This document shows, piece by piece, positions 4,487-20,012 of a stretch of DNA of 64,000 bases (position 1 is its first letter; every line of letters begins with the position of its first letter). Location: assembly GCF_006016075.1 (NCBI RefSeq), contig NZ_CP040093.1, positions 1,427,069 to 1,491,068 of the forward strand. Direction: 5' to 3'. This DNA is from Caloramator sp. E03. GTDB taxonomy: Bacteria; Bacillota; Clostridia; Clostridiales; Caloramatoraceae. Position numbers and translations under genes: made by a program. The notes under the pieces are model-generated. The model was not told the origin of the DNA. It did no database searches and saw nothing but the letters and a program-made list of their open reading frames with translations.

Positions 4487-4516
4487 TTAAGGCTTCAGAT
4501 TCTCCTGAAGCCTTAA
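4487..4516 (-). terminator. hairpin after cotJC
   Basis: Perfect 12-bp stem TTAAGGCTTCAG/CTGAAGCCTTAA with a 6-nt loop, immediately downstream of the cotJ operon. No strong T-run follows on either strand, so efficiency is uncertain. Confidence 0.6.
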
Positions 4517-4526
4517 ATTATCAATT

Positions 4527-5126
4527 TTAACTATTTTCTTTTTTTATTGACATATCAAATACATTTTTACTATCAATATATTCATACAAATTAACCAATG
4601 CTTCCCCAAAGCGCTGGTAATGAACAACTTCTCTTTGCCAAAGGAACTTTAAAACTTTTTTTATATCCTCCTCATCAGTTAAAGCTATAAGGTGTTCATA
4701 GGTTGCCCTTGCTTTTTGCTCTGCAGCCATATCTTCATGAATATCAGTAATGGGATCTCCAAGGGTTGCAATATATGCAGCAGTCCATGGAATGCCATTT
4801 ACATCTGTTGGGAAAGGAGCATTATCATGTTGAACATATTGAGCTCCAAGACCTGCTTCTTTTAACTCTTCAGGAGTAGCGTTATGCATTATCTGATAAA
4901 CCATAGTTGCTATTATTTCAAGATGTGCAAGCTCTTCTGTCCCAATATCATTTAAAAGTGCCTTTGTCATTCCTGTTGGCATTGTATAACGTTGATTTAA
5001 ATACCTTATTGCAGCACCAAGTTCCCCATCAGGTCCTCCATATTGGGTAATTAAAAACTTTGCCATTTTAAGATCTTTGCTTTTTATATGAACTGGATAT
5101 TCCAGCTTCTTTTCATAAATCCACAT
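4527..5126 (-). CDS. cotJC: spore coat protein CotJC (manganese catalase family)
   Basis: 199 residues from the ATG at 5126, chosen because AGGGGG lies 7 nt upstream and CotJC proteins begin MWIYEKK; an upstream in-frame ATG lacks support. The four-helix ferritin-like core carries Glu/His positions of Mn-catalases (GTEELAHLEIIATM, AAEQKARATYEHL, REVVHYQRFGEAL). It is part of the inner spore coat in Bacillus. It ends the cotJA-cotJB-cotJC operon; the gap to cotJB is 11 bp. Confidence 0.93.
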   Translation of the reverse strand: MWIYEKKLEYPVHIKSKDLKMAKFLITQYGGPDGELGAAIRYLNQRYTMPTGMTKALLNDIGTEELAHLEIIATMVYQIMHNATPEELKEAGLGAQYVQHDNAPFPTDVNGIPWTAAYIATLGDPITDIHEDMAAEQKARATYEHLIALTDEEDIKKVLKFLWQREVVHYQRFGEALVNLYEYIDSKNVFDMSIKKENS

Positions 5127-6575: not shown

Positions 6576-6983
6576 CTATTTTGCTAATTTTAAATACTCA
6601 ACATCATAGGTGTTTTTCATAGTTACCTTTTCAACTTTATCCATCTTTTCATTTAAATTTTTTATATCCTCTGATAAGCTCTTTATAGATAAAGTCAATA
6701 TTTCCTTTGTTTCTCTCTGCTCTTTAATAACTTCCTCTAATTTTCTTTCTGTTTCCTCTTTATTGCTACTATAACCTTCAAATAGTACAGAAATTTTAGG
6801 CTTAATATCGTTTTCAATTGTAAAATTAACCTTTTTTACTTCTTTTTCCAACCCGTCAAATCTTTTTTCTAAGCCGTCAATTCTTTTTTCTAAGCCGTCA
6901 ATTCTTCCATTTACATCTTTAAAACCTTGCTGCATTTCAACATACATTTTCTCCATCAATTCAAATAACTTTCCATTGTCCAT
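6576..6983 (-). CDS. coiled-coil protein with heptad repeats
   Basis: 135 residues, no membrane segment. Residues about 27-47 hold three copies of a seven-residue unit (RIDGLEK), encoded by a 21-bp DNA repeat near 6850-6905; the rest is also predicted coiled coil. The C-terminus (VEKVTMKNTYDVEYLK) resembles that of the 82-aa protein at 19035-19283 (IEYVTSKNWNEITKLK), which lies just inside the other end of the integrated element. Function unknown. Confidence 0.75.
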   Translation of the reverse strand: MDNGKLFELMEKMYVEMQQGFKDVNGRIDGLEKRIDGLEKRFDGLEKEVKKVNFTIENDIKPKISVLFEGYSSNKEETERKLEEVIKEQRETKEILTLSIKSLSEDIKNLNEKMDKVEKVTMKNTYDVEYLKLAK

Positions 6984-7177: not shown

Positions 7178-7228
7178 TGGTGCACCTGAGAGGATTCGAA
7201 CCTCCGGCACACGGTTTAGGAAACCGTT
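7178..7228 (-). pseudogene. displaced 3' half of tRNA-Arg(CCU), left attachment site
   Basis: Minus strand: anticodon-arm remainder, T-arm GGAGG-TTCGAAT-CCTCT, acceptor CAGGTGC and CCA. No D-arm or 5' acceptor lies beyond 7228. Positions 7208-7228 are identical over 21 bp to 19966-19986 inside the intact tRNA; outside that core the T-stems differ at two compensated base pairs. This is the host 3' half cut off by integration. Confidence 0.85.
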
Positions 7229-7335
7229 TAATGCTATTTTTAGGACAAGCTCTATACTTTAAAAGCCTTGATATATCTACATTTGTTTGTTTTGATAATT
7301 TATGCCATTACCTCAAAAATCGTTTATTTTTTTGT

Positions 7336-7426
7336 GGGTTGCAGTACGGTTGCAGTACAAAAACATCCTCCGTATACATTGATTTTACTAAGTTTTAAGG
7401 CATAATAAAATTTTAATTGCAGTACA
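7336..7426 (+). repeat. left arm-type integrase sites (inferred)
   Basis: A tandem 11-bp repeat containing TTGCAGTAC twice (7339-7347, 7350-7358), with a third copy near 7418. The same 23-bp double repeat occurs at 19865-19887 near the right end, on the same strand. Paired repeats near both att cores are typical of the sites bound by the N-terminal domain of Tn916/phage-type integrases. Confidence 0.6.
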
Positions 7427-8066
7427 AAATAAAGGATGTAAATTAAGCTTACAGCCTTTTTAATATTAGGCTGGCAGGTAACTCTTCAATTAACTTTTGG
7501 TCGCCCAAATTTTGGAGGAGTAAATTGTATCTTTGAATAAGGTTATACTACAAAATTTATAGTCCAACTTAATTTTAAGGTGGTTATTAATTTTAAATGC
7601 TGTTAAGTAAAATCTTACAAAGGGTATTTCCAAAATGGAATATCCTTGCGAAACCATCACTAAACAAATTTATTATTTAGTAAAACTAACGCCCCAATTT
7701 TTCGGGTGGTTGTTACTCTTTTTTAAGTAATAGCTATCTATGAAATTTTTTACTTACAACTCCTTATTTTAAATTCCTGAGAACGCAATTTTGCGTTTTC
7801 TAAATTTTACCTTTACGATGTCGGTTAAAGATACATCCTTTTTATTTTGATGTCTATAATACTGGAAATAGTGATATTATAGACGGCAAAAACACTGGAG
7901 AAAGTGCACAAAGAAAAGAAAAGAAAAGTAAAGAAAATAATAATAATAAAATATTATTATCCGTAATAACTCATTAAAGGCAAAAATAATCTCCCCAAAT
8001 TTGGGGAAATATAAATGTTCGCAGCTATCTATTTGTAAACTTGTAAACCATTTTAAAAATTTTATG
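7359..8066. other. gene-poor stretch of the element with hairpins and a decayed reading frame
   Basis: No convincing gene. Hairpins include AACGCAATTTTGCGTT (7782-7797) and the perfect palindrome TCCCCAAATTTGGGGA (7992-8007). The plus-strand frame 7804-7977 encodes a tail with TGESAQRKEKKSKENNNNK, which resembles the frame at 8666-8881. Lys/Glu/Asn-rich tails of this sort occur in phage replication proteins, so it looks like a remnant. Confidence 0.5.
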
Positions 8067-8300
8067 CTAAGGGGATTTTCGGGATTCGCAAGACCCGCAT
8101 CTCCCCCACCCCTCAGGAAGTACCTTTAAAATAGATTTTACCTTGGCAAGTACGGACAATCTGTCCGTGGTTGAAAATTCCTCAGGAAGTACCTTTAAAA
8201 TAGATTTTACCTTGGTGCAATGCTGCACTAAGGTTTTGCTGTTTTCGCAGCAATGCGATTTAACCTCTTCGCAGCAATGCGAATAAGTTATACCCCCCAC
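8067..8300 (-). CDS. doubtful 77-aa reading frame built from palindromic repeats
   Basis: The frame encodes repeated units (YSHCCEEVKSHCCENSK, and two copies of KVKSILKVLPE) and has no clear SD before its start. Its DNA is two 36-bp direct repeats plus four short hairpins (8152-8168, 8215-8228, 8245-8258, 8268-8283). It may be a relic of a repeat-bearing replication protein or merely open because of the repeats. Function unknown. Confidence 0.25.
   Translation of the reverse strand: MGGITYSHCCEEVKSHCCENSKTLVQHCTKVKSILKVLPEEFSTTDRLSVLAKVKSILKVLPEGWGRCGSCESRKSP
8111..8215. repeat. two 36-bp direct repeats separated by 33 bp
   Basis: Copies at 8111-8146 and 8180-8215, starting CCTCAGGAAGTACC and ending TTTTACCTTGG, appear identical. 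The spacer holds the hairpin ACGGACA-ATC-TGTCCGT. Confidence 0.85.
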
Positions 8301-8665
8301 CTTCTAATTTACAAAGTCCATAACATGCCCTCGAACCTGTCAACAATTTTTTATATATATTTTTAACCTTTCCTATTATCCTGTTATAGTCAAATAAAGA
8401 GAGAATATAATAGTTTCTGCATACATAAATCATTTTGCTCTCTTTACTTTTCTTTACTTTACTTTCCTTTACTTTACTTTGTGAATTAATGTTAACATTA
8501 ACTATCTTATTGGCGGTATTAATGTTAACAATAACAAGGTTTTTGTATGCATTAATTTTTTAACCTCCCGTCAGTAGTGTCGATAGGTTATCTAAACTAA
8601 AAATTATAATATCTAAAATAATTAGTGACAGTGATGTCTATTATTTGATTTTTTACTTAAATTAA
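8301..8665. other. AT-rich non-coding stretch with operator-like palindromes
   Basis: No gene seen. It contains a pyrimidine-rich run of CTTTACTTT units (about 8436-8480), the perfect 16-bp palindrome TTAATGTTAACATTAA (8486-8501) and a second near-copy at 8519-8534, which look like binding sites for an unknown regulator. Confidence 0.5.
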
Positions 8666-8881
8666 TTTTACATATTTTACCTGTTTGACGTTAATTCCGA
8701 GTTAATGGAAGTTATTTCGGAGTTTACTGGGGTTTCCTCTGGAGAAAACTCAATAAACTCTGGAGAAAGTACACAAATAAAAGAAAAGAAAATAAAAGAA
8801 AATAAAAATAAAATAAATAATATAAAATTAGCTACTGACGAGACTAATTTTATTAAAAATATGGTTTCACAAAATTGTTAA
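8666..8881 (+). pseudogene. possible remnant of a phage-type replication or regulatory protein
   Basis: Open frame ending at 8881 (ATG at 8705 gives 58 aa) with ELMEVISEFTGVSSGENS followed by a basic KEKKIKENKNK tail. No SD precedes the ATG. The tail matches the frame at 7804-7977, so these are two decayed related copies. It is on the strand opposite the element's live replication genes. Confidence 0.35.
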
Positions 8882-8965
8882 ACCATAACAACTTATTTCT
8901 ACCTGCTATATTTCTTAAATAGTCTAACCTTTTTATGTTGAAAAGTATGCCCTAACTAAAATAAT

Positions 8966-8998
8966 TAAAGGACTCCGTAATTTATGGAGTCCCTTTTG
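8966..8998 (+). terminator. hairpin with short T-run
   Basis: GGACTCC/GGAGTCC stem (8970-8976, 8986-8992) with a 9-nt loop, followed by CTTTT. It could end transcription running rightward from the remnant frames. Confidence 0.5.
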
Positions 8999-9490
8999 GA
9001 AGGAAGTCGTTATTTTTATTTTTATATCTAACGGCTTAATGTGGTCATGCTGCTACCGTATAATTTTCTTTTCTGGAAGAACCTATAAAATATAAATAGA
9101 TTCGTTTACAGGTGCATATATAATTTACCCCTTGAACGTTTCTTTTTTTAGGAACACGGATATAATATTATTTTTATAGGTCAAGGTTGACACGGCACAA
9201 CAAGAAAATATTTTTTTATTTTTATGTGAATTTTATATAAAGGCAATAATTAGCTTATGCCAGTATGCTCATTTTAGAAACAATCAACTGTCCAATTGTA
9301 TATACCCTTAACCCGTATATAGTATATTGATGCAGAGATATTTTACCTATGCAGTGAGGCTTGTGGTATCCACAATTTAATATTTTACATGTTCACTACC
9401 CATTAGGGGTATATTCCCCTTGCATGCGTAATAACTCCTCTTTGTCGTCCCTGCCGCCCGTTCTCCCAATATTGAGATGTTTTTGATTTT
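8999..9490. other. non-coding stretch downstream of the sigma factor gene
   Basis: No gene seen on either strand. It holds two small hairpins, TTGTGG-TAT-CCACAA (9361-9375) and AGGGG-TATATT-CCCCT (9405-9420), the second a possible weak end for the minus-strand operon. Confidence 0.4.
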
Positions 9491-10297
9491 TTAAATCATG
9501 GGGGTATTCCTCATTATCTCTCCTAACTTTTCAGGAGGTGTATTTTTTATTATTTCTCTTAACTTTTCCCTTAGCAGCTCTCTTTTCATTACGGTTAATT
9601 CAACGGTACTTGTTGTAAAGCTTGTCTGTACTTTCGGTTTAGAATAATCAACTGCCTTTACATAAAAAGTATTTTCATCTATCCAATGCCTGTAAATCAC
9701 TTTTAATTTTCTTACCTTAGTCCGCAAATTATTTTTTAACCGGCTTTTAAAATTTCTAAACTCTTTGTTAGTCATTCCCATTCTTTCAGCAATTGAGTTT
9801 TCCGTTAGTCCATAAACAAATTTTAATTTTATAAACTCTAATTCCTGCTCTGTTAGTTTCTCCTTTAATGCTGCCCATACTTCACTTTTAAATTCCTTCT
9901 TCTCTAATTCCTCATCTATAATAAAACTTTTATCTTTCAACATATCAATAAAGGTTAAATTATCTTCTTCCCCTTCATTGTTAATCTTTTCATCAAGGCT
10001 TAGAGTTTCCTCATGCCCTTCTAATGCTCGTCTTATTGTTTGTTTTATCCATATAACCGCATAGGTTGAAAATTTGTTACCCATTGAAGGATCGTATTTT
10101 TCTATTGCTTTAATAAGTCCTATCGTCCCTATCTGTATTAAATCCTCTAAGTCAAAGTCCTTGTAATTATCCACTTCAAACAGGACATAATATTTATTAG
10201 CTATATGCCTAACAAGGTTAATGTTTTTTAATATCAGCTGCTCCCTTGCTTTTTTATCACCTTTCATATACATTTCAAACATCTGTTCATTAGTCAA
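9491..10297 (-). CDS. sigma-70 family RNA polymerase sigma factor of the element
   Basis: About 268 residues. Region 2 is clear: DLEDLIQIGTIGLIKAIEKYD followed by NKFSTYAVIWIKQTIRRAL. Region 4 (LTEQELEFIKLKFVYGLTENSIAERMGM) follows, and then a C-terminal extension of about 75 residues. I start at the TTG at 10297 (AAGGA upstream); the longer frame has no SD and would run through the repeat array at 10322-10563. As the distal gene after the replication block it may direct late element genes, or act in trans on a helper phage or host; no late genes are present. Confidence 0.8.
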   Translation of the reverse strand: MTNEQMFEMYMKGDKKAREQLILKNINLVRHIANKYYVLFEVDNYKDFDLEDLIQIGTIGLIKAIEKYDPSMGNKFSTYAVIWIKQTIRRALEGHEETLSLDEKINNEGEEDNLTFIDMLKDKSFIIDEELEKKEFKSEVWAALKEKLTEQELEFIKLKFVYGLTENSIAERMGMTNKEFRNFKSRLKNNLRTKVRKLKVIYRHWIDENTFYVKAVDYSKPKVQTSFTTSTVELTVMKRELLREKLREIIKNTPPEKLGEIMRNTPMI

Positions 10298-10321
10298 GGT
10301 ACCACTTCCTTTTTTTACCTT

Positions 10322-10563
10322 ATGACAACTCTGTGACAACTTTAAAATTTGAAAAGCCTTGAAAAATCTACGTTGTGACAAGTGTGACAACTTTGACCCC
10401 TTATTGTTTTATATATATTTTTATATTCTTTTATCCATATAAGACTTATACAACAAAATTTGTCATAGTTGTCATAAAAATAATATAAATATAGTAATAT
10501 CAAGGGTTTAAAGGTATTCTAAAACTTGTCACAAACCTGTCACAACCTGTCACAACCTGTCAC
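10322..10563. repeat. array of TGTCAC/GTGACA boxes
   Basis: At least nine copies of a TGTCAC-like box. GTGACAA or TGACAA type copies lie at about 10323, 10332, 10373 and 10383; TTGTCAT copies at 10460 and 10469; TGTCAC copies start at 10527, 10538, 10548 and 10558. The last four are spaced 11, 10 and 10 bp, i.e. on one helix face. Between the two groups is an AT-rich stretch (10403-10525). This suggests an iteron origin or a cooperative operator upstream of the sigma factor. Confidence 0.7.
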
Positions 10564-10685
10564 CGGGTATTTATTACCACTTACCAGTTGATTTTGCAAG
10601 TTTTTATTTGTTTCTTGCATTTTGTAAAGAATATTATAGCATTTTTTATTAATGTTAAGGTAATATTGCAATTTTATTTATTATT
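10564..10685. other. AT-rich gap without gene
   Basis: Nothing recognisable between the box array and the truncated primase gene. Confidence 0.4.
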
Positions 10686-10949
10686 TTACTCATTTCTTAT
10701 GTTATATTTTCCCTTTATTTCCTTTGTATGACCTGCCTCTAACCAGTCTGAAATGTCCCCTTTTGGTGGTAAATTCAAGTCTAAAACAGATAAAATTTTA
10801 ATTGATCCAAGGTTTTTTTGTTGGTATACCAACTTTTTTTGATTGGATCCAACGTTTTTTTCATTGGATCCAAAGTCAAAATCATTGTTTTTTTGTATAT
10901 TAAGTTTGTTTTTTTGATATTTTAATAATGACTCTGCAATATATTCCAT
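10686..10949 (-). pseudogene. truncated Toprim/primase tail with seven-residue repeats
   Basis: 87 residues. The C-terminus (VLDLNLPPKGDISDWLEAGHTKE) is the end of Toprim-type primase or RepA-like helicase-primase proteins, which are normally several hundred residues long. The catalytic part is missing. The middle is four seven-residue units (GSNEKNV, GSNQKKL, VYQQKNL, GSIKILS) encoded by exact 21-bp DNA repeats with palindromic centres. No good SD is seen at the annotated start. It lies 48 bp past dnaB. Probably a deletion remnant, possibly kept for its DNA repeats. Confidence 0.55.
10801..10875. repeat. four palindromes at an exact 21-bp period
   Basis: Palindrome centres lie at 10805.5, 10826.5, 10847.5 and 10868.5. 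Units are a degenerate TTGATCCAA, GTTGGTATACCAAC (10820-10833) and TTGGATCCAA twice (10843-10852, 10864-10873), separated by T-runs. A period of two helical turns places all centres on one face. Confidence 0.8.
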
Positions 10950-10978
10950 GTGTGCTATGCCTGCATTTTAAAAAATAA

Positions 10979-11005
10979 TATCATAACGAAATTTACGTTA
11001 TGATA
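10979..11005. repeat. hairpin overlapping the dnaB stop codon
   Basis: Perfect 10-bp arms TATCATAACG/CGTTATGATA around AAATTTA. The minus-strand dnaB stop (10998-11000) lies in one arm. No T-run follows, so it is not a standard terminator. It belongs to the element's family of hairpins with AT-only centres. Confidence 0.75.
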
Positions 11006-12272
11006 CTTTATGTATTCCTGTTATAATCTGAAATTCTCCCATCCAATTAAGCTTAATTGTTCCTGTCCTGCCTCCTCTGTTTTTTGATATATTTATTTCA
11101 ATTATCCCTTTGTCTTTACTATTAGCATTATAGTATTCATCCCTGTAAAGTAATAAAACAACATCTGCATTTTCTTCAATCCCCGAACTTTCTTTAAGGT
11201 CTGATAATGCAGGTCGTTTGTCCCCCCTTGATTCTACCCCTCTGTTAAGCTGGCTTAATGCTATTACAGGAACATCAAGGTCTTTTGCTAAATTCTTTAG
11301 CATAATACATATATTTGTTACCCTCTGTCTTTCTGTTTCCGCATCTGCATTAACTAAGCCTATATGGTCTACTATTACCATGTCTAACATATTTTTTATT
11401 TTAAACTTCTTAGCTTGTCTTATTATGTCATTGATGTTAAGCCCTGCTTTATCTATTACAATTAATTTCTGCTTTGAAAATCTATCTTGTGCATTATTAA
11501 GTTTTTTTATTTCCTCTGGTGTTATTCTCCCTATATCAATTTTAGCCATATCAACTAAGCTTTGCGACGCTAATATCCTAAGTCCTATCTCAATAGCCGT
11601 CATTTCAAGGGAAAAATATAAAACATTTTTTGTTTTGGAAACATAATCAGCAATATTTATTGCTAATGCCGATTTACCCATTCCCGGACGTCCTGCTATT
11701 ACATACATTTTCTTATTCTGAAATCCATTAAGTATTAGGTCAAGCTGTGAAATATTGCAGGTAATGCCTTTAATTTTCCCTCCTTGTTTCATGTTCTCAT
11801 CTATAACATCAAACAATTCCTTGTTTATTTTCTCCGCTGTCCATATATCCATTTTATCATCATCAAAGGTGATTATATCCTGCATAAGCTCATTTATAAG
11901 GATGTTATAATCTTTATTTTCTATATCCTTATAAACATTCGTAAAGGTATTTATTAGCTGTCTTTTATAATAATTATTTTTTATAATCTCTATTTTATTT
12001 TTATCTAAGAAAATATCACCATGCATTGCTAAGTCTGATATATAACTATGTCCGCCTATTTCTTGAACATTTATCTCATTAGCGATATTTATAATATCAA
12101 TTGATTTACCTTCTTGAAAAAGCTTAAACATTACAGCATATAATTTTTGATGTTTAGGTATATAAAAATGCTCTGGTTTAAGATCTATTTCAACAATAAC
12201 CTCATTCTTTGTTAATATAAGCCCTAATATAGCCTGTTCTGCTTGAAGGTTAAATAATACTTTCTGTTCCAC
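10998..12272 (-). CDS. dnaB: replicative DNA helicase (DnaB/G40P-like)
   Basis: 424 residues: the N-terminal DnaB domain (NLQAEQAILGLILTKNEVI), then the RecA-like ATPase with Walker A GRPGMGKSALA (about 193-203), FSLEMT, Walker B MVIVDHIGLV, the SQLNRGVESR arginine-containing loop and SSGIEENADVVLLLYRDEYY. Hexameric helicase that opens the fork. It is directly preceded by a loader-like gene and an initiator-like gene, the gene 38-39-40 order of phage SPP1. It is the element's own copy; the host dnaB is not in this window. Confidence 0.93.
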   Translation of the reverse strand: MEQKVLFNLQAEQAILGLILTKNEVIVEIDLKPEHFYIPKHQKLYAVMFKLFQEGKSIDIINIANEINVQEIGGHSYISDLAMHGDIFLDKNKIEIIKNNYYKRQLINTFTNVYKDIENKDYNILINELMQDIITFDDDKMDIWTAEKINKELFDVIDENMKQGGKIKGITCNISQLDLILNGFQNKKMYVIAGRPGMGKSALAINIADYVSKTKNVLYFSLEMTAIEIGLRILASQSLVDMAKIDIGRITPEEIKKLNNAQDRFSKQKLIVIDKAGLNINDIIRQAKKFKIKNMLDMVIVDHIGLVNADAETERQRVTNICIMLKNLAKDLDVPVIALSQLNRGVESRGDKRPALSDLKESSGIEENADVVLLLYRDEYYNANSKDKGIIEINISKNRGGRTGTIKLNWMGEFQIITGIHKVS

Positions 12273-12288
12273 CTACGGCATACCTCCA

Positions 12289-12549
12289 TTACATTAAATC
12301 GCTTAAGTCTGCTTCTTTAATCCATGTGTTATTAGTATTAATTTCTGCCTTAAAAACATCTGCCATACTTGGAGAAAAGGAAACATTTTTTAATACCCAA
12401 TCGATTCTTTGCTTAAATTCTTCATCTGTCATGTCCTTCATGTATTCGTACCATTGTTTAGCTCTTTGTGTAGTCATTAAAAAGCCTTTCTCTTTATACT
12501 CAATATCTAACTTATTAACAAACTCTTTAAATACATTAACATCCAACAT
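12289..12549 (-). CDS. probable helicase loader (G39P-like)
   Basis: 86 residues from the ATG at 12549 (GGAGTGATTTCG upstream); it overlaps the end of the initiator gene by 14 nt, implying coupled translation. The pattern WYEYMKDMTDEEFKQRIDWV followed by FSPSMADVFKAEI resembles the 'loader and inhibitor of G40P' family, small phage proteins that deliver the helicase to the initiator. The assignment rests on this short pattern and on its position between initiator and helicase. Confidence 0.6.
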   Translation of the reverse strand: MLDVNVFKEFVNKLDIEYKEKGFLMTTQRAKQWYEYMKDMTDEEFKQRIDWVLKNVSFSPSMADVFKAEINTNNTWIKEADLSDLM

Positions 12550-13414
12550 CGAAATCACTCCAATTATTGTTAATATCCTTATTATCATAATTACCTTCAA
12601 TTATTTTTTGAAGGTTAGAAGGCTTAATTATCCAATCAAAACAAGCCTTCCATTTTCCACTTCTACCCGATAGGAAATCGCTATTATTAACTTTCTCAAA
12701 TAAATCTTTAAAGAAATTAATATCTGGATTCTCTTTCCATCTCTGCCTTACCGTTTTTTGTCTGCTCCCTTTTATATCCCTAATTTTTGGAAGTGTAACA
12801 CAAATATTATTAAAAAGATTCTTAATCTCTTCATAGGGCGTTTGAGTAAACGACTTGTCGTTTACACTATCTTCGTAAGAAGATAGTAATATATTATTAT
12901 TGTTAATTGTAATACTGTTATTTGTATATTCTGCATTTTCCATAACTGGATTTTGCAGAAGTGGTTTTTTCTCCATTCCGTCATTTTGCATGAACGGTTT
13001 TAAGCTTAAGCTTTGATTTTCCTTAATTTTTGCCACTTCTTCATTTTGCATAAGTGGCTTTATATCCACTTCTTTATTTTGCATAAGTGGTTTTTCTACT
13101 ATTTCGGTATTTTTATATAGTGGATTTAATTTATAAAAAACTCTTCTATACTGACCTTTACTATTTTTTTCTTTGCTTTTTGAAATAAAACCTGTTTTAA
13201 TTAAAATATCTAAGTGTTTATAAAATCTATTCTTGTCTATTTTTAACTCACTTGTTATAAGTTCAAGTGAAGGAAAGGCGTAACCGTCATTACCTGCGTA
13301 TGAACATAAATAGCAATATATAGCCTTAGCCTCAATAGTTAACCTTGTATCCTTCATTACTTGTTTTGGTATTATCCCGTAACCTGAGAAATTACTTGTT
13401 TTATCATCGCTCAT
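12536..13414 (-). CDS. phage-type replication initiator (G38P/DnaD-like) with internal repeats
   Basis: 292 residues from the ATG at 13414 (AGGGGTGAT upstream); the longer frame starts inside an SD-less hairpin. Residues about 20-100 form a winged helix with LTIEAKAIYCYLCSYAG, common in plasmid and phage initiators. Residues 108-155 hold four KPLMQN-type units (108, 119, 139, 150). The C-terminal part (NSDFLSGRSGKWKACFDWII, then EGNYDNK) is the conserved end of phage initiators. The repeats are iterons at DNA level, so the origin probably lies in this gene, as oriL does in SPP1 gene 38. Confidence 0.82.
   Translation of the reverse strand: MSDDKTSNFSGYGIIPKQVMKDTRLTIEAKAIYCYLCSYAGNDGYAFPSLELITSELKIDKNRFYKHLDILIKTGFISKSKEKNSKGQYRRVFYKLNPLYKNTEIVEKPLMQNKEVDIKPLMQNEEVAKIKENQSLSLKPFMQNDGMEKKPLLQNPVMENAEYTNNSITINNNNILLSSYEDSVNDKSFTQTPYEEIKNLFNNICVTLPKIRDIKGSRQKTVRQRWKENPDINFFKDLFEKVNNSDFLSGRSGKWKACFDWIIKPSNLQKIIEGNYDNKDINNNWSDFDVGC
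12846..12887. repeat. two abutting perfect hairpins inside the initiator gene
   Basis: GTAAACGAC-TT-GTCGTTTAC (12846-12865) is followed with no gap by ACTATCTTC-GTAA-GAAGATAGT (12866-12887), then by an AT-only stretch (about 12888-12930). They lie about 60 bp from the iterons, so they could be part of an origin (unwinding region or single-strand structure). Confidence 0.75.
12950..13090. repeat. iterons within the initiator gene, candidate origin of replication
   Basis: Four copies of ATTTTGCATAAGTGG or close variants start at 12950, 12983, 13043 and 13076; spacings are 33, 60 and 33 bp. Three are flanked so that arms such as CCACTT/AAGTGG or CCGT/ACGG form imperfect dyads. They encode the KPLMQN repeats. 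An AT-rich region with two hairpins lies on the 12840-12940 side. Confidence 0.65.
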
Positions 13415-13432
13415 ATAATCACCCCTTAGTAT

Positions 13433-13458
13433 AGGTGGACGGAAAATTCCGCTCACCT
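13433..13458 (-). promoter_or_regulatory. leader hairpin before the initiator gene
   Basis: Minus-strand stem with AGGTG/CACCT and CGGAA/TTCCG segments separated by 2-nt internal loops, ending about 19 nt before the initiator ATG. It overlaps the stop codon of the 18-aa upstream frame, suggesting translational control. Confidence 0.5.
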
Positions 13459-13509
13459 AAGCCTTTCCCTTTCCTCGGTGGTTTGCAGCATGTTTATTAA
13501 CTTGTCCAT
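13453..13509 (-). CDS. 18-aa leader peptide upstream of the initiator
   Basis: MDKLINMLQTTEERERLR. The SD is near-ideal (AAGGAG, 8 nt before ATG), better than most genes here. It ends inside the leader hairpin, 38 bp before the initiator start. The gene may be a short regulatory frame controlling the initiator; conservation is unknown. Confidence 0.45.
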   Translation of the reverse strand: MDKLINMLQTTEERERLR

Positions 13510-13545
13510 CTTTTCATCTCCTTTCTGATTATGCTTCATTAGCTC

Positions 13546-13583
13546 AATCCAAAATTGGATTCAGCTAACCACCAAATGGTGGT
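13546..13583. repeat. two hairpins of the AT-centred family
   Basis: AATCC-AAAATT-GGATT (13546-13561) and ACCACC-AAAT-GGTGGT (13568-13583), six bases apart in a 235-bp gap between genes. Neither has a T-run on the transcribed strand. Confidence 0.7.
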
Positions 13584-13744
13584 CAGCTTTTTATGTTTTT
13601 AACCAGCGACAAATTCCGCTCGTTAAAAATCAGCTTTTTAGTGTTTTATGTCATATTTTGGTAAAAACAAAGTCTTTATTTTATAACTGAAAGGTATTAT
13701 AATTAATCATAGGGTTGACTTTTAGGTTTTCTGTTACGGAAAGC

Positions 13745-13978
13745 CTATTTTTTTAATATCTTTGTCATTGCTTCAAGTAATTCATGGGCTTGTTTCGCTT
13801 TAGGGTTAATTATTAAAACTGTTTCTTTTTTATACGGTAATATTGCGAATGTAAACTTAGGGTCTGTTTCTGTCTTATGCAACATTAGCGGCAATTCGGA
13901 TTTATAAATTTCCTTATCATCAATTGTTATTTTTAAAATATGCTTTTCATTTTCCATATTGTTTTTAGCTGTTTTCAT
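13745..13978 (-). CDS. small protein of unknown function
   Basis: 77 residues, alpha/beta-looking (HILKITIDDKEIYKSELPLM, AILPYKKETVLIINPKAKQ), no membrane segment. ATG with GGAAAGGGG upstream. It lies in the early minus-strand operon of the element. Unrecognised. Confidence 0.6.
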   Translation of the reverse strand: MKTAKNNMENEKHILKITIDDKEIYKSELPLMLHKTETDPKFTFAILPYKKETVLIINPKAKQAHELLEAMTKILKK

Positions 13979-14030
13979 GAAATTTTACCCCTTTCCTTTT
14001 CATCATGTATTTTTATAATTTTTCTAACTA

Positions 14031-14201
14031 CTAACGGTTATGCTTTAAGCATAATAACTCAATTTCTCTTAATAAGTCCTCTTGCTTTTCTAAAATCTCA
14101 TATACTTTGTTTTTTCTCTCTGGCTCATCTGCTTCATAGCAGGTCTTTTTTATAACAAGTCCGCCTTTATATTTTTTAATTATCACCCTTGTTTTGCTCA
14201 T
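14031..14201 (-). CDS. small basic/helical protein of unknown function
   Basis: 56 residues from the ATG at 14201, preceded by AAGGAG at 8 nt; the longer frame lacks an SD. Lys/Glu-rich with a helical C-terminal half (KVYEILEKQEDLLREIELL). Early operon of the element. Unrecognised. Confidence 0.6.
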   Translation of the reverse strand: MSKTRVIIKKYKGGLVIKKTCYEADEPERKNKVYEILEKQEDLLREIELLCLKHNR

Positions 14202-14227
14202 ACTTATAGCTCCTTTCTGTAATAACT

Positions 14228-14251
14228 GGAACAAATTCCGCCTTAAAGGCG
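14228..14251. repeat. two small abutting hairpins
   Basis: GGAA-CAAA-TTCC (14228-14239) and CGCC-TTAAA-GGCG (14239-14251) in the short gap between two genes; members of the element's hairpin family. Confidence 0.55.
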
Positions 14252-14255
14252 AAAT

Positions 14256-14501
14256 TCATTCCATCCATGACGTTTCATTAACCCATTTTATAAAAGCTTC
14301 CCTTGGAATTAATATTCTTCTTTTTGCTGCCTGTATCTTAGGAAAATCCTTTCTATGTACTAAGTTAAGCATGGTATTATATCCTACCCCTAACATTTTA
14401 GCTGCTTCATCAATGTTAATTGTTAGTCTTTCAATCTTCTTCTTTAATGGCTCATCGTTATAAACTTCATAACCCATGTCATTTTTAATCGTATTTTCCA
14501 T
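14256..14501 (-). CDS. excisionase-like helix-turn-helix DNA-binding protein
   Basis: 81 residues. LTINIDEAAKMLGVGYNTML followed by VHRKDFPKIQAAKRRILIP and EAFIKWVNE is the MerR-like winged helix of the excisionase/HTH_17 family. Such proteins act as recombination directionality factors or as AlpA-type activators in islands. It is in the leftward early operon, so it would be made when the repressor is relieved. Confidence 0.8.
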   Translation of the reverse strand: MENTIKNDMGYEVYNDEPLKKKIERLTINIDEAAKMLGVGYNTMLNLVHRKDFPKIQAAKRRILIPREAFIKWVNETSWME

Positions 14502-14640
14502 AATCTAATTACCCCTTTCTATATTGTTTTTACTGTTACTTTTTAAGGTGAATTTTTTTAAAAGGTATAAATGTATTACCTTGGTGTTTGGTGTGCTAAA
14601 ATATGCTCTCCTCTGGGAACTTTTTAAAATAATTTTGATT
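14502..14640. other. short gap without gene
   Basis: AT-rich, nothing recognised. Confidence 0.3.
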
Positions 14641-14910
14641 TTAAAATTGACCTTTTAACCTATTAACTAAAATCTCTTTTTGTTTTGTTGATAGTTTTCT
14701 CGGAGGTCTAACTGATAACCAATTTTTCAATACAATAAAAGTTAATCCCCCATCGCCATTATCTTTTTTAAATTTAACTCCTTCTGGATTCGCCTCTGCA
14801 TACTTTTTAAGCTTTCTTATCAAAGGCTTATTATAGGTGAAAATTTCTGCTTCCTTGTCCTTCTCGTTAAATATGATAATTGTTTCCTTTTCTTCAAGTG
14901 TTAAACTCAT
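14641..14910 (-). CDS. phage-associated protein of unknown function
   Basis: 89 residues. MSLTLEEKETIIIFNEKDKEAEIFTYN with a C-terminal WLSVRPPRKLSTKQ matches a small family common in Firmicute prophages and integrated elements whose function is unknown. ATG with GGAGG upstream. Early operon of the element. Confidence 0.7.
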   Translation of the reverse strand: MSLTLEEKETIIIFNEKDKEAEIFTYNKPLIRKLKKYAEANPEGVKFKKDNGDGGLTFIVLKNWLSVRPPRKLSTKQKEILVNRLKGQF

Positions 14911-14932
14911 GATATAACCTCCCCATTCGCTT

Positions 14933-15106
14933 TTATTGCTGCTCTTTGCAATGTTCCCCGATATTATCAGATAAGCTTTTTAAATACCTGTTTTCCATCT
15001 CTAAGATTTTAAGCCTTATTGTTAATTCTGCATTTTTAGAAGATAATTCCTTGATGTCGTTAATAAGTGCATCAATTATCATATCTTTTCTTTGGCACTC
15101 ACACAT
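14933..15106 (-). CDS. 57-aa leucine-zipper-like protein
   Basis: MCECQRKDMIIDALINDIKE then a coiled-coil stretch with regularly spaced Leu/Ile (about residues 12-45). The SD is excellent (GGAGGG before TTTAAAATG). Too short to stand out by length, but the signal and operon position support it. Function unknown; it may be a small regulator. Confidence 0.6.
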   Translation of the reverse strand: MCECQRKDMIIDALINDIKELSSKNAELTIRLKILEMENRYLKSLSDNIGEHCKEQQ

Positions 15107-15238
15107 TTTAAACCCTCCTTCCCTTATTTGGGGATTTACAAAATTTTAATTCCTTTGTTTTGCTTTATGATTATGGACAGCGGTGTCGTTAACCATTTTT
15201 AAGAATAATTAACTTTCTTCCTGTGATAGCTTGGACAC

Positions 15239-15250
15239 TCCAATTTTGGA
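15239..15250. repeat. small palindrome next to the Cro-like gene
   Basis: TCCA-ATTT-TGGA just past the stop codon of the XRE gene. Confidence 0.45.
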
Positions 15251-15253
15251 TAC

Positions 15254-15460
15254 TCATACAATTTTAAATATTTCGTCAAAGTCAACTTCTAATGCCTCAG
15301 CTATGGCTTTAGCGGTTTTAGGAAAAATATTTTTTCCCTCCTCCGCTCTAATAATTGATAGATAGCTAATACCTGCTTTTTTACCTAATGCTCTATAAGT
15401 AAAGCCCTTTTTAATTCTAATTACCTGCAAATTATTTGGTTTAGCAAGAACTTTCTTCAT
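15254..15460 (-). CDS. Cro-like XRE-family regulator
   Basis: 68 residues from the ATG at 15460, which has AGGAGG 7 nt upstream (the frame extends eight codons further, through the SD). The HTH is NLQVIRIKKGFTYRALGKKAGISYLSIIRAEEGK. First gene of the leftward early operon, divergent from the larger repressor, as cro is from cI. Confidence 0.88.
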   Translation of the reverse strand: MKKVLAKPNNLQVIRIKKGFTYRALGKKAGISYLSIIRAEEGKNIFPKTAKAIAEALEVDFDEIFKIV

Positions 15461-15501
15461 TTTTATACCTCCTAAATTCTTCATTCTTCATCTTTTATTT
15501 T

Positions 15502-15530
15502 ATTATATTCTTCGTTTTTATCACTGTCAA
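15502..15530 (-). promoter_or_regulatory. leftward early promoter
   Basis: Perfect sigma-A promoter on the minus strand: TTGACA (15525-15530), 17-nt spacer, TATAAT (15502-15507). It drives the Cro-like gene and probably the whole replication operon. Confidence 0.88.
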
Positions 15531-15562
15531 TAAAAATGTTTCAATTTTATTCGTTATTGTGA

Positions 15563-15585
15563 TATAATATTCTTAAATGAAGAAT
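15563..15585 (+). promoter_or_regulatory. -10 box and operator-like dyad for the repressor gene
   Basis: TATAAT at 15563-15568 with no good -35 box, followed by the dyad ATTCTT-AAATG-AAGAAT (15569-15585). AAGAAT half-sites recur on the Cro side (about 15470-15490 and 15505-15512), so both promoters may share operators. Confidence 0.5.
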
Positions 15586-15593
15586 TCAAAGGG

Positions 15594-16430
15594 GTGATAA
15601 TTATTTTTAAAGAAAGACTTAAACAATTAAGAGAAGAAAAAGGACTAACCCAACAAGGATTAGCAGAAGAACTAAAAATAGGACGTGCTTCAATAAGCAA
15701 TTATGAATTAGGAACAAGAACGCCAGATATTGAAATTTTATCTAAACTTGCAGACTTTTTCGGCGTAACAACAGATTATTTAATAGGGAAAAGTGATTAT
15801 AGGACGTGGGAAGAGGAATATATTATAAAAAACTTTGAAAAAAAATATAGTTTTTGTGAATTTGATGATTTTAAATGTAATAACGAAAGAAAAGTTATAT
15901 TAAATAAAATTATTTTAAATAATATTGAACCTTTAAGTAAAAACATAATAATTTACTTTAAAAATCATTTAGAAATAGAGCAATCAAAAGAACCATTAGA
16001 AATTAGCTTACAAATGCAAAAATTAATTAAAGATTTATTAAACTTCTTTGAAAAGTTAAATGAATTTACTAAACATGATAATTATTTTTATGCTATTTCC
16101 CCTAATCTTGCAATAAATACATTTAAGAATTATATTAATAGTAATTTTAATAAAACAACTCAAAAAACATATAATGATATTCAATTTTACGAATTTATTG
16201 ATATGACAAACTTTTTAACTAATAACCTTTACCCATTATCAAAAGAAATTTATTCTGATATACAAAAAATAATAGGTCTTTATATTAGTAATTTATCCGT
16301 TAGTTCTAAAATCTTAAATTACATAATCTTAAAAAATTCCGATAATTTGCCCCTAAATTATAAAGAAAAAATAGCTAAAAATATAGAAGAAATTATACAA
16401 AAAATTTCAAATGATAAAGAAAATAAATAA
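15594..16430 (+). CDS. XRE-family repressor (CI/Stl-like) with long C-terminal domain
   Basis: 278 residues. N-terminal HTH: FKERLKQLREEKGLTQQGLA then ISNYELGTRTPDIEILSKLADFFGVTTDYLIG. The C-terminal 200 residues are Asn/Lys/Ile-rich and match no peptidase domain I know; no Ser/Lys dyad of LexA-type self-cleavage is apparent, so induction may be by a partner protein as in satellite repressors. The start is uncertain: the GTG at 15594 is inside the SD (AAAGGGGTGAT), and the family start corresponds to ATT at 15600 or 15603. Confidence 0.82.
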   Translation: MIIIFKERLKQLREEKGLTQQGLAEELKIGRASISNYELGTRTPDIEILSKLADFFGVTTDYLIGKSDYRTWEEEYIIKNFEKKYSFCEFDDFKCNNERKVILNKIILNNIEPLSKNIIIYFKNHLEIEQSKEPLEISLQMQKLIKDLLNFFEKLNEFTKHDNYFYAISPNLAINTFKNYINSNFNKTTQKTYNDIQFYEFIDMTNFLTNNLYPLSKEIYSDIQKIIGLYISNLSVSSKILNYIILKNSDNLPLNYKEKIAKNIEEIIQKISNDKENK

Positions 16431-17209
16431 TTATATTCTTAATGTTTTATACTCTCCCACCCCCTAACCTTTATATACACAGCCCTTTAGCTTTAACTTC
16501 TTTTCCCTAAGTATAGAATTAAAAATTTTTTATTATGGCATCGATAACTTATCGACCCCTTATAGTACATTCTACTAAGGTATAGAAGTTAAAAATTTTT
16601 TATTATGACTGCAAATACAAAGGAAAACAGGGAAGAAAACAAAGAAGATACTTCTATATTTTCCCCGTGGAAAACTCCGAAGAAACGGGGTAAAGTAAAG
16701 TAAACGAAAGTAAATAATAATAAAAAATATTATTATCAATCCCCCAGCTTAAAATGGGAAAAATAATATAATGGTGGGAACGGTGCAAAGGAACTTTTTC
16801 CAATAGGGTAACTTATGAAAAAAAGGGGTAATTAAAAATGATATACCCTCAATTTGAGATAGGTTGAAAATTCATCATTTGGTTATTCTCACCGCTGCGA
16901 ATAATCAAATTTTTTAAACCATTTTTAAAAACTTATCGCAGCAATGCGAAAGGTATTAACTAATTACTCAAACCATATATTAAAATGCTTTTCGCAATGG
17001 TGCGAATTGCAGGTATACCAAAAATTGAGAGGACAGGAGATATAAAAAATTTGAGTTTTTTCTCTAATTTGTTCAAGTAACGGATTTTCAAGTACCCACA
17101 ATTTGTGGGTAGGGGGTATAAAAAAGTTTGAGTTTTTCAGCAATACCGTGCGTCCCCAGCTTCACTTATAAAAAATTTGTAAAATGAAATTTTAAGGGAG
17201 GTATTATAA
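16431..17209. other. 780-bp non-coding stretch with repeats and hairpins
   Basis: No convincing gene; a 33-codon frame at 16604 has no SD. Contains a direct repeat (16511-16537 and 16580-16607) and hairpins TCGATAA-C-TTATCGA (16541-16555), TCGCA-GCAA-TGCGA (16936-16949), TTCGCA-ATGG-TGCGAA (16991-17006) and ACCCAC-AATTT-GTGGGT (17094-17110). Also a purine-rich run like those at 7910 and 8780. Confidence 0.6.
16511..16607 (+). repeat. 27/28-bp direct repeat
   Basis: GTATAGAA, one or two variable bases, then TTAAAAATTTTTTATTATG, at 16511-16537 and 16580-16607. A 15-bp hairpin lies between them. Confidence 0.8.
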
Positions 17210-17788
17210 ATGCCGCTTATTAACCCTTCACCCATAACCTATAAAGACTATATAAACATGAATGTTAAAGATACACTCGAAGTAATAGACGGTATTCCTT
17301 ACAATATGTCGCCGTCCCCTTCAAGGATTCATCAAAAAATTATTATTGAACTTGTAACTTTAATAAACAATCACTTAAAGTTGAATAATATGCCCTGTGA
17401 AGTCTATTCTTCACCTCTTGATGTTATATTTATTAACGAAAATGAAGATATTTATTCTTCAAGAAACATTGTGCAGCCTGATATTCTTGTTATATGCGAT
17501 AAAAATAAACTCTCGGATAAAGGAATTATAGGCAGTCCTGATTTTATTATCGAAATTGTATCTCCTTCATCGGCTGCACTTGATTATATTAAAAAGCTTA
17601 ACCTTTACAATCAATACAAAGTTAAGGAATACTGGATTATTAACCCTGCAACATTAAAAATACTTGTTTATAAGCTCATGGAAAACAATGAATACGGTCA
17701 ACCTGAACAGTTTACCTTTGATGATATAGTTAAACTGGATCTGCTTAATTTAACTATTGACTTTAACTTAATTAAAGAGGTGTTATAA
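17210..17788 (+). CDS. Uma2-family (DUF820) restriction-like endonuclease
   Basis: 192 residues. The PD-(D/E)xK-type core shows DTLEVIDGIPYNMSPSPS, then VQPDILVICDKNKLS, then SPDFIIEIVSPSSAALDYIKKLNLYNQY and KEYWIINP, the Uma2 pattern with catalytic Asp, Glu and downstream Lys positions. The family is abundant in cyanobacteria and some Firmicutes and of unclear biology. The stop codon abuts the integrase ATG, so the two are translated together. ATG with GGGAGG upstream. Confidence 0.85.
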   Translation: MPLINPSPITYKDYINMNVKDTLEVIDGIPYNMSPSPSRIHQKIIIELVTLINNHLKLNNMPCEVYSSPLDVIFINENEDIYSSRNIVQPDILVICDKNKLSDKGIIGSPDFIIEIVSPSSAALDYIKKLNLYNQYKVKEYWIINPATLKILVYKLMENNEYGQPEQFTFDDIVKLDLLNLTIDFNLIKEVL

Positions 17789-18973
17789 ATGCCTAAAAAA
17801 AGAGGAAACAACGAAGGTACTATTTACAGGCGTCCTAATGGGCTTTGGTGTGCCCAAATTACCTTAGGAAGGGACGAAATGGGAAAATTAAAGCGAATGA
17901 CATTTTACGGGAAAACAAGGCAAGAAGTATCGGAAAAGATTAATAAAGCTTTAACTTCATATTCAGCGGGTATTTTAGTTGAACCTTCACAAATAACCTT
18001 AGGGAATTGGCTTAATACTTGGCTGTTTGAGTATAAGAAAAATAGTTTAAGACCTTCAACGCTACAAAGTTATGAATATTTAATTAGATATCATATTAAT
18101 CCTGCATTAGGACATTATAAATTAAAAGAGTTAAGGTCTGAACATATACAACTTTGTTACAACGAAAAACTTAAAGAAGGTTTATCACCTAAAACTATAA
18201 GAAATTTACATAACGTTATAAATGCAGCATTAAAGCAAGCTGTAAAAAATAACTTAATTACCCGTAATGTAACCGAAACAACAAGTTTGCCAAAATACAA
18301 GAAAAAAGAAATTAAAGTTTTAACACTTGAAGAACAGGACAAATTCATTAAAGCCCTTGAGGGGGAACGTCTTAAAGCTGCTTTTATTTTAGCACTTTCA
18401 ACTGGACTTAGGCAAGGTGAATTATTAGCTCTTACATGGGATAATATAGACTTTAAAGAAGGCACTTTAACGGTTAAAAAGTCATTGAAAAGAGTTAAAA
18501 ACTTTGATAAAAGCATAAAAAAGAATACAGTTTTGATATTTCAAGAACCTAAAACATCATCTGGTATTAGAATTGTACCAATCCCTCCCTCTGTAATTGA
18601 AGAACTTAAAGAACACAGGAAGGCACAACTTCAAGAAAAGCTTAAAGCTGGTGAAGTTTACGAAGATAATAACTTAGTCTTTGCAAGTGAATTAGGTCGC
18701 CCTATTGAACATAGTCATTTATTAAGAGTTTTTTATAGAATAACTGAAAAAGCTAATATTGATATAAACTTTCATGCTCTGCGTCATACCTACGCTACAC
18801 GACTTTTAGAAACAAACGAACATCCTAAGGTAGTTCAGGAAATTTTAGGGCATAAAGATATAACAACAACATTAAACATTTATTCCCATGTTATGCCTGA
18901 GGTTAAAAAAGCTGCCGCAATGAAAATTAATCACTTATTCGAAATTGATAAGAAAAATAAAAAATCTAATTAA
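17789..18973 (+). CDS. int: tyrosine recombinase/integrase
   Basis: 394 residues in the phage/Tn916 layout: N-terminal arm-binding domain (GTIYRRPNGLWCAQITLG, 10-60), SAM-like core-binding domain (70-165) and the catalytic domain with R208 (TGLRQGE), K255, H329/R332 (HALRHTYATR), H355 (LGHKD) and nucleophile Y365 (TLNIYSHV). All catalytic residues are present. Its SD (GAGGTG) lies inside the end of the Uma2 gene. It lies about 1 kb from the right att core in tRNA-Arg. Confidence 0.95.
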   Translation: MPKKRGNNEGTIYRRPNGLWCAQITLGRDEMGKLKRMTFYGKTRQEVSEKINKALTSYSAGILVEPSQITLGNWLNTWLFEYKKNSLRPSTLQSYEYLIRYHINPALGHYKLKELRSEHIQLCYNEKLKEGLSPKTIRNLHNVINAALKQAVKNNLITRNVTETTSLPKYKKKEIKVLTLEEQDKFIKALEGERLKAAFILALSTGLRQGELLALTWDNIDFKEGTLTVKKSLKRVKNFDKSIKKNTVLIFQEPKTSSGIRIVPIPPSVIEELKEHRKAQLQEKLKAGEVYEDNNLVFASELGRPIEHSHLLRVFYRITEKANIDINFHALRHTYATRLLETNEHPKVVQEILGHKDITTTLNIYSHVMPEVKKAAAMKINHLFEIDKKNKKSN

Positions 18974-19034
18974 TTATTTATACCCTTTACCCTTTGTGTT
19001 ATAATATAAATACCACTTTCGGAGGTGTTTTAAT

Positions 19035-19283
19035 ATGGATAATCAAAATCTTTTGGCTGCAATTGAAGAACTACTTGATAAAAAGCTTGAACCTATTAAC
19101 AACAAACTTGATAACATGGAGAAAAAATTAAATGCAGTATTTGACCAAGTGGTCGACCTTACAGAGTTTAAAACCGAAGTTAAAGAAAAACTTGATAACA
19201 TTAGAGATGATATTAATGCTATCGAATATGTAACATCTAAGAACTGGAATGAAATAACTAAGCTTAAAATAAAAGCTGTATAA
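19035..19283 (+). CDS. small coiled-coil protein
   Basis: 82 residues, almost wholly coiled coil (IEELLDKKLEPINNKLDNME). GGAGGTG precedes the ATG. C-terminal IEYVTSKNWNEITKLK resembles the 135-aa protein at 6576-6983 outside the other junction. Related coiled-coil proteins often sit beside integrases in clostridial elements, but the role is unknown. Confidence 0.75.
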   Translation: MDNQNLLAAIEELLDKKLEPINNKLDNMEKKLNAVFDQVVDLTEFKTEVKEKLDNIRDDINAIEYVTSKNWNEITKLKIKAV

Positions 19284-19317
19284 AAACTAAGCCAAAATTT
19301 AGGCTTAGTTTTTTATT
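19284..19317 (+). terminator. intrinsic terminator
   Basis: AAACTAAGCC/GGCTTAGTTT stem with an 8-nt loop followed by TTTATTT, right after the coiled-coil gene; it probably ends the Uma2-int unit. Confidence 0.88.
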
Positions 19318-19864
19318 TATGTTTTCGAAAGTAAACGCTCGGTTTTATTGTCTTTACTTTTAAATTTAACATAGGATGTCGTAAAACACGACTCCCTTAA
19401 CCATTTTCCAAGAAATAACTAAAATTGCACCGACCGAAATAGTCGGCACAAATTCAATGACAATAGAAAAGAAATTCAAAAATATTATGCTCTGCAATTC
19501 ACCCCGTACCTTTTAGTACGATCTCCTTTAACCAATACAAAATTGGATTCGTTTAATTTGTGAACAGTATCCCGTTTTAAGATACCTTTAACCTATGTAA
19601 TTATATTATATTTCTTAGTTATAAAATTTTAAAAATGAATAGATGACTTTCCAAGTTAGGAAGTCACCTTTGCAAAGGTACTAAGGTATTATCCTAACAT
19701 TTTCCCCTCTTGTCCATCTATATTAACTCGATTTAGCTAACTTTAAAATCGATTTTAAAGTTATACCTCAATCCCCCTCCAAAGTTATAATTTTAGTTTG
19801 CCGATTTAAAAACGGAAAAGCAAAAAATAAAAAAAGCAGGAATGAATTTTATCCTGCATTTTTT
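19318..19864. other. non-coding right end of the element, rich in hairpins
   Basis: No gene seen. Hairpins: GTCGT-AAAAC-ACGAC (19378-19392), CCGAC-CGAAATA-GTCGG (19430-19446), CGTAC-CTTTTA-GTACG and CCAAT-ACAAA-ATTGG (both about 19500-19550), and a GACTTTCC/GGAAGTC stem near 19645. Several are followed by TTAACC. Confidence 0.6.
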
Positions 19865-19887
19865 GGGTTGCAGTACGGTTGCAGTAC
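19865..19887 (+). repeat. right arm-type integrase sites (inferred)
   Basis: Two tandem 11-bp units containing TTGCAGTAC, identical over 23 bp to 7336-7358 at the left end. They lie 79 bp from the right core; the left pair lies about 110 bp from its core. Confidence 0.6.
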
Positions 19888-19935
19888 TAAGACCATTTTT
19901 TGAAATCTCACAATCGTTGCAAGTCTTGATTTATC

Positions 19936-20012
<77 letters not shown>

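Follow-up and report, generated by a model that had tools for sequence, protein, structure and literature searches.

The integrative element and its genes

The window, by which we mean the whole 64-kb stretch of DNA analysed here, contains an integrative element of about 12.8 kb (7178..19986) bounded by two copies of the 3' sequence of tRNA-Arg(CCT). These copies form a 51-nt direct repeat (7178-7228 and 19936-19986, 90% identical), the second being the 3' part of the tRNA itself (19936-20012). One genome of the same genus (G005) has an empty site, its left and right flanks being joined through a single 51-bp copy, and in another (G006) a related element end borders the same tRNA. Just inside both element ends we observed a 35-nt repeat (7330-7364 and 19859-19893, 91% identical), each copy of which contains TTGCAGTAC twice. 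These repeats are candidate arm sites of the integrase, and a further copy lies beside the same tRNA in G006.

A tyrosine integrase (17789..18973, plus strand; phrog_1 integrase, E = 3.7e-88) adjoins the tRNA-side end. It is oriented the same way as a CI-type repressor-like HTH protein (15594..16430, plus strand; HTH_3, E = 4e-18), which is divergent from the replication genes running in the opposite direction. Also on the minus strand are an HTH_17 protein of the excisionase/regulator type (14256..14501; E = 2.8e-11) and, at the far end of the element beyond the helicase, a phage-type sigma factor (9491..10390; phrog_351, E = 1.3e-37). An 87-aa ORF (10686-10949, minus strand), whose terminus LPPKGDISDWLEAGHTKEI resembles the C-end of a phage primase, is probably a primase remnant. 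No capsid or packaging genes were recognised in the element's ORF list, and the element may be a satellite, an integrative plasmid-like element or a reduced prophage. Its size of about 13 kb, its tRNA attachment site, and an integrase and repressor divergent from the replication block are features that it presumably shares with Gram-positive phage-inducible chromosomal islands. It differs from these islands in having no terminase or capsid-interference genes recognised in its ORF list.

An initiator, a small ORF and DnaB form the replication block

The replication block lies on the minus strand in the order initiator, 86-aa ORF, DnaB, an arrangement proposed in an earlier note on this DNA and confirmed by coordinates and profile matches. 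The initiator (12536..13414, 292 aa) comprises an N-terminal HTH_36 winged helix, an iteron-encoding linker and a C-terminal DnaB-associated domain. It matches phrog_19658 'replication initiation' (E = 9e-34), and its N-domain was assigned to HTH_36 (PF13730; E = 1.8e-13, 50.5 bits against a curated cut-off of 25). The RepA_N domain (PF06970) is absent from its Pfam matches. The C-domain (12539..12838, minus strand) is helical, about 100 aa long and confidently modelled by AlphaFold (pLDDT 90.8), and among its homologues it is joined to many different N-domains. Downstream lie the 86-aa ORF (12289..12549, minus strand), a possible divergent G39P-type helicase loader, and the DnaB-type replicative helicase (10998..12272, minus strand; DnaB_C, E = 5.9e-79).

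The earlier note had likened this block to the initiator-loader-helicase genes 38-39-40 of phage SPP1, and the likeness holds in part. The gene order is the same, the helicase is 34% identical to G40P (97% coverage), and the C-domain shows a distant relationship to its counterpart in G38P (probability 90% and E = 1.5e-6 by hhalign with G38P and two further sequences). The resemblance does not extend along the whole initiator: BLASTP found no similarity between it and G38P, whose N-domain is unlike the HTH_36 domain here, and the C-domain is the only part with a (distant) relation to the SPP1 protein. For the 86-aa ORF we obtained weak pairwise signals, by BLASTP against G39P (E = 8e-4) and the loader of Bacillus phage 031MP003 (E = 8e-7) and by hhalign against G39P (probability 32%), and no match to a G39P profile among Pfam and PHROG. 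A specific SPP1 likeness of the origin candidate described below is not supported, and its c[TNNC]g hairpin is absent from SPP1 gene 38. What is supported is a block of initiator, possible loader and helicase with an intragenic origin candidate.

Fold searches of the PDB with models of the small ORF and the C-domain gave no convincing match and neither support nor exclude G39P-like or DnaT/DnaD-like folds; sequence searches of the PDB returned chance-like matches only. A DnaT-like C-domain, prompted by the name 'primosomal protein I' in Pseudomonas phages, was rejected for want of Pfam support.

Initiator domains are exchanged between related loci

Two Caloramator-type loci, L002 and L004, have the same order of initiator, small ORF and DnaB, with the 86-aa ORF kept in the same place (61-66% identity). 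L002, from Caloramator fervidus, has a C-domain about 80% identical to that of the window and lies at a contig start, with an IS beside the initiator fragment. L004 combines an N-domain 70% identical to ours and five iterons of the same type with a different C-domain, and the same HTH_17 protein is found upstream of its initiator. Conversely, L005, from another family, has the C-domain in common and a different N-domain. Given these swaps, the N-domain travels with the iterons and the C-domain separately. A single-protein scan with the whole initiator found one relative in genome contigs and none in viral contigs.

Other parts of the neighbourhood also recur. Locus L002 carries a counterpart of the sigma factor (3002-3766) and one (4305-4700) of a coiled-coil protein that lies just outside our element (6576-6983, minus strand). 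Marinitoga camini viruses 1 and 2 (L365 34-2025 and L367 2201-4318) have a short ORF with the C-domain, a 69-aa ORF and then DnaB, in the same order as the window, and the 69-aa protein looks unrelated.

Iterons and an AT-rich stretch lie in the initiator linker

Four iterons at 33, 60 and 33 bp spacing had been described inside the initiator gene, encoding KPLMQN peptide repeats, and we found both as described. The 15-mer CCACTTATGCAAAAT and its variants occur at 13076-13090 and 13043-13057 (0 mismatches each), 12983-12997 (3 mismatches) and 12950-12964 (1 mismatch), and a fifth, weaker copy with 2 mismatches (12935-12949) abuts copy four. Matches in the rest of the 64-kb window were limited to four scattered ones with 3 mismatches, where chance predicts 4.9 over the whole window. 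The repeat unit is more aptly described as CCACTT-N13-AAGTGG, an interrupted inverted repeat of 25 bp, which is perfect in copies 1 and 2 and degenerate in copies 3 and 4. So read, and all on the minus strand, iteron 1 is CCACTTATGCAAAATAAAGAAGTGG (13066..13090), iteron 2 is CCACTTATGCAAAATGAAGAAGTGG (13033..13057), iteron 3 is CCGTTCATGCAAAATGACGGAATGG (12973..12997) and iteron 4, which the weak fifth copy overlaps, is CCACTTCTGCAAAATCCAGTTATGG (12940..12964). One iteron copy of L004 is a near-perfect palindrome, CCACTTCCTCAAAATGAGGAAGTGG.

Codon choice in the repeats points to constraint on the iterons at the DNA level, beyond the need of the peptide. When the window is compared with L004, same-residue codon pairs are identical in 90% of cases in the iterons and 67% in the N-domain, the comparisons within the repeats not being independent of one another. 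Moreover, both perfect AAGTGG arms contain the rare valine codon GTG, which encodes 6% of the valines in the window genes sampled. The earlier proposal that a single stretch of DNA provides both iterons and peptide linker is supported, and as an origin the stretch remains a candidate.

Between the iterons and the hairpins, and still within the initiator gene, lies an AT-rich stretch (12888..12930), which was also correctly reported and is, from its sequence, a candidate unwinding region. The order along the gene is iterons, AT-rich stretch, hairpins and C-domain.

Two abutting hairpins precede the C-domain

The two hairpins that the earlier note placed in the initiator gene are present, and they abut exactly. 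Hairpin 1 (12866..12887, plus strand, which is the template strand) reads ACTATCTTC-GTAA-GAAGATAGT and has a 9-bp stem and a 4-nt loop, of the form c(GNNA)g on the template strand (c-GTAA-g) and c[TTAC]g on the coding strand. Hairpin 2 (12846..12865, plus strand), GTAAACGAC-TT-GTCGTTTAC, likewise has a 9-bp stem, with a 2-nt loop (CTTG/CAAG). Hairpin 1 is preserved in C. fervidus L002, where its loop codon and one of the outer codons differ. When the window is compared with C. fervidus, none of the 12 codons with unchanged residues in the hairpin region differs synonymously, whereas 35 of 75 do so elsewhere in the C-domain. The hairpins are accordingly more than chance. Mentioned only briefly in the earlier note, they are the most informative feature of the locus. 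An intrinsic terminator or a nut/boxB site was considered and rejected: there is no T-run, the loop on the mRNA strand is not GNRA-like, and the hairpins lie within the reading frame.

A strand-specific hairpin class accompanies the C-domain

Because the hairpin region showed no synonymous change, we collected genes with the same C-domain, finding 269, of which 185 were non-redundant. Hairpins were counted in the 200 nt before the C-domain, with two controls: a codon shuffle that keeps the protein, and the 200 nt that follow in each gene. Across the 185 genes, which are partly related, we counted 143 perfect hairpins whose stems reach 7 bp or more; codon-shuffled sets had 19.5 each, and the adjoining C-domain DNA had 18. 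The excess consists mainly of 4-nt loops of one class, closed by C-G and having T first and C last on the coding strand. Such c[TNNC]g hairpins with a stem of at least 6 bp occur 52 times just before the C-domain, against 0.47 expected from the codon shuffle, which does not preserve dinucleotide content, and 0.42 from flanking DNA. The mirror class, with a G..A loop on the coding strand, was found 0 times among the 185 genes. With one mismatch allowed, 47 of the 185 genes carry a c[TNNC]g hairpin (maximum of 4 in 100 shuffled sets).

The class is thus present in about a quarter of the C-domain genes, and many others have no hairpin. Its members span 17 of 85 sequence clusters and have 28 different 5' arms. 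Coding-strand loops include TAAC, TGAC, TGGC, TTAC, TAGC and TACC, so that on the template strand the loop is c(GNNA)g with two variable middle bases. The stems covary in outer pairs that had not been used for selection: the seventh pair is kept in 33 of 42 cases, with both sides changed in 10. These statistics show that the hairpin is selected at the DNA level, its stem free and its loop fixed and strand-specific. The loop's codon frame is constant in 50 of the 52 hairpins, but we dropped this as evidence, as the few chance hairpins of shuffled genes share the frame.

The surroundings of the hairpin recur in the family as well. The AT content is highest in the 40 nt immediately 5' of the hairpin, at +0.12 to +0.20 over the gene mean, and a second hairpin starts at most 6 nt downstream in 23 of 45 hairpin-bearing genes, the window included, against 2.6 expected. 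As a control for the N-domain, we took 52 non-redundant HTH_36 homologues, 47 of which have another C-domain; none of the 47 carries the c[TNNC]g hairpin. It is thus with the C-domain, rather than the N-domain, that the hairpin is associated. One Clostridium group has an AAA triloop in place of c[TNNC]g, and a triloop hairpin of the type ATCAGATG-AAA-CATCTGAT was seen at the same place in L007, L008, L010, L011, L229 and L233.

The title of Nakano et al. 2002 (cited in PMC5090098) names d(cGNNAg) as one of four stable DNA tetraloop motifs obtained by selection. Hairpin 1 of the window is of this form, with a 4-nt G-N-N-A loop, closed by C-G, on one strand. The hairpin class itself is not described in the searchable literature, whose coverage is thin for the lambda papers of 1977-1983; prior notice of the lambda inverted repeat in those papers is likely.

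The same hairpin class occurs in lambda gene O

An origin inside the initiator gene is textbook knowledge for phage lambda. As in the window, lambda ori in gene O has inverted-repeat iterons, an AT-rich tract and an inverted repeat, all inside the initiator linker. The window follows the lambda-type layout, with its iterons between the N- and C-domains, its AT-rich stretch on the C-domain side of these and its inverted repeat on the far side. The lambda inverted repeat, a 28-bp repeat just right of the AT-rich tract (39162-39189), reads GTCAGAGaATTC-TGGC-GAATcCTCTGAC. Its loop, c[TGGC]g, belongs to the same class as that of window hairpin 1 and stands in the same codon frame. The two systems differ in that lambda has P as loader and uses host DnaB, whereas the element encodes its own DnaB and the small ORF.

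Viral contigs yielded close relatives of lambda O that were almost identical and hence uninformative, and we used a spread of named phages instead. A c[TNNC]g hairpin is present in 10 of 17 named genes against 0.26 expected, although not all of the 17 are independent, several being lambdoid relatives. The carriers include lambda (TGGC), mEp237, Perceval and Mulock (TGAC), Erwinia 59 (TAAC) and Hafnia Meifeng (TCTC); lambdoid O genes other than lambda's have TGAC, TAAC or TCTC loops, some of them on changed stems. Pseudomonas phage phi297 and Bacteroides phage BS-TP2 have the loop TGAC. Initiator genes of phages from several bacterial phyla, lambda among them, carry the class. The hairpin was not found in P22 gene 18 or in Gifsy-2 O. 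The C-domain of lambda O has no detectable relation to that of the window, so that linkage to a single domain family explains the pattern only in part.

O binds the lambda iterons, and the adjoining AT-rich tract opens before DnaB is loaded (PMC5043065, PMC7466680). Since published descriptions of a minimal lambda ori comprise the iterons and the AT-rich region and leave out the inverted repeat (PMC4488673, PMC5043065), the latter may be dispensable or modulatory. A plasmid parallel comes from the RepA_N initiator Rep of pSK41, for which the excerpted text of PMC5703833 describes an origin centrally in rep, a dispensable encoded linker peptide and a C-domain that interacts with DnaG primase. 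According to the same excerpt, the pPR9 initiator has a PF13730 (HTH_36) N-domain, as here. These Rep proteins resemble the window initiator in the linker position of the origin, a candidate one in the window, and in the modular exchange of N- and C-domains, and the excerpt makes no mention of this hairpin class (PMC5703833). An origin within the initiator linker is therefore already known, from lambda O and pSK41.

A lambda-like origin with a DNA hairpin is the favoured reading

On balance we favour the view that the element's origin of replication lies in the linker of its initiator gene and is organized like lambda ori, with the hairpin as a possible place of helicase loading. The parts of this reading carry different weight. 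The origin itself is probably located in the linker; that the hairpin acts as a single-stranded DNA structure appears about as credible as its opposite; and a role of the hairpin in helicase loading is put forward tentatively. In such an origin, the N-terminal winged helix would bind the four 25-bp iterons that are also read as KPLMQN repeats, as homology and codon constraint suggest. Binding would open the adjoining AT-rich stretch, by analogy with lambda, and the template strand of the opened duplex could then fold into the stable c(GNNA)g hairpin. The hairpin might mark or hold the site where the C-domain and the loader place DnaB, or else the start of a primer. The initiator would thereby consist of two exchangeable modules, the N-domain with the iterons and the C-domain with the hairpin, each having its DNA site beside its own coding part.

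The hairpins might instead be double-stranded palindromic sites for a dimeric protein, either a regulator or the initiator, since dimeric proteins typically bind palindromes and two stand here side by side. We consider this improbable: a double-stranded site is expected to keep its half-sites and not its spacer, whereas here it is the loop that stays the same and the stems that vary freely and covary from lineage to lineage, and one strand orientation of the loop class outnumbers the other by 52 to 0. Distinctly improbable, too, is action in the initiator mRNA, for example as a ribosome pause that helps the new N-domain act on its own origin. The hairpin does lie inside the coding region at a domain border; its loop, however, would be c(UNNC)g, which is not known to be a stable RNA tetraloop. 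RNA parameters favour the template-strand version (-10.2 versus -9.3), and the DNA beside the hairpin is on average AT-rich, both of which weigh against the mRNA. Such a pause would be in keeping with the fact that trans complementation of lambda O has long been questioned (PMC6022878).

We also give little credence to the idea that the linker repeats matter as peptide only and that the origin lies elsewhere, for example in the non-coding interval 13457-13744 upstream of the initiator. That interval has no listed gene and carries short repeats, and relatives have linker repeats of many kinds. Set against this, iteron codon conservation exceeds what the peptide needs, the AT-rich stretch and the hairpins are in the linker as well, and the origins of lambda and, in the excerpt of PMC5703833, of pSK41 lie at this very place. 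Rather less improbable, though still unlikely in our view, is that the element is what remains of a decayed prophage or satellite, with an origin that has ceased to work. The lack of recognised capsid and packaging genes in the ORF list, the primase-end-like fragment and the C. fervidus contig that begins with an IS beside an initiator fragment would all suit decay. Yet the genes for integrase, repressor, initiator, small ORF product and helicase all have open frames, the codons of the hairpins are still under constraint, one same-genus genome has an empty site, and another carries, at the same tRNA, an end related to that of the element.

Beyond the element, the reading of the linker as a lambda-like origin can be extended to a conjecture that we regard as possible but doubtful. 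The c(GNNA)g single-stranded DNA hairpin would be a general cis element of lambda-type origins across several phyla, folding on the template strand after the AT tract opens and serving as a loading or priming mark for helicase or primosome, which would then also be the function of the lambda inverted repeat. What is new here is the hairpin class, whose strong over-representation becomes visible when stems are compared by pairing and not by sequence. The extension of the pattern to lambda hints that phage replication origins share a part that has been overlooked. Should the hairpin be a DNA structure for loading the helicase or primosome, one mechanism would link phages of several phyla, the lambda inverted repeat would have a role open to testing in a model system, and annotators would gain a simple mark for locating phage origins.

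Further repeats within the element

Three similar AT-rich stretches (7890-7951, 8755-8816 and 16672-16733), one of which reads GESTQIKEKKIKENKNKINN, resemble the linker of other initiator genes and are possible remnants of a second initiator. A palindromic 16-mer, TTCGCAGCAATGCGAA, is repeated with variants towards both sides of the element, at 8238-8283 and 16929-16950.
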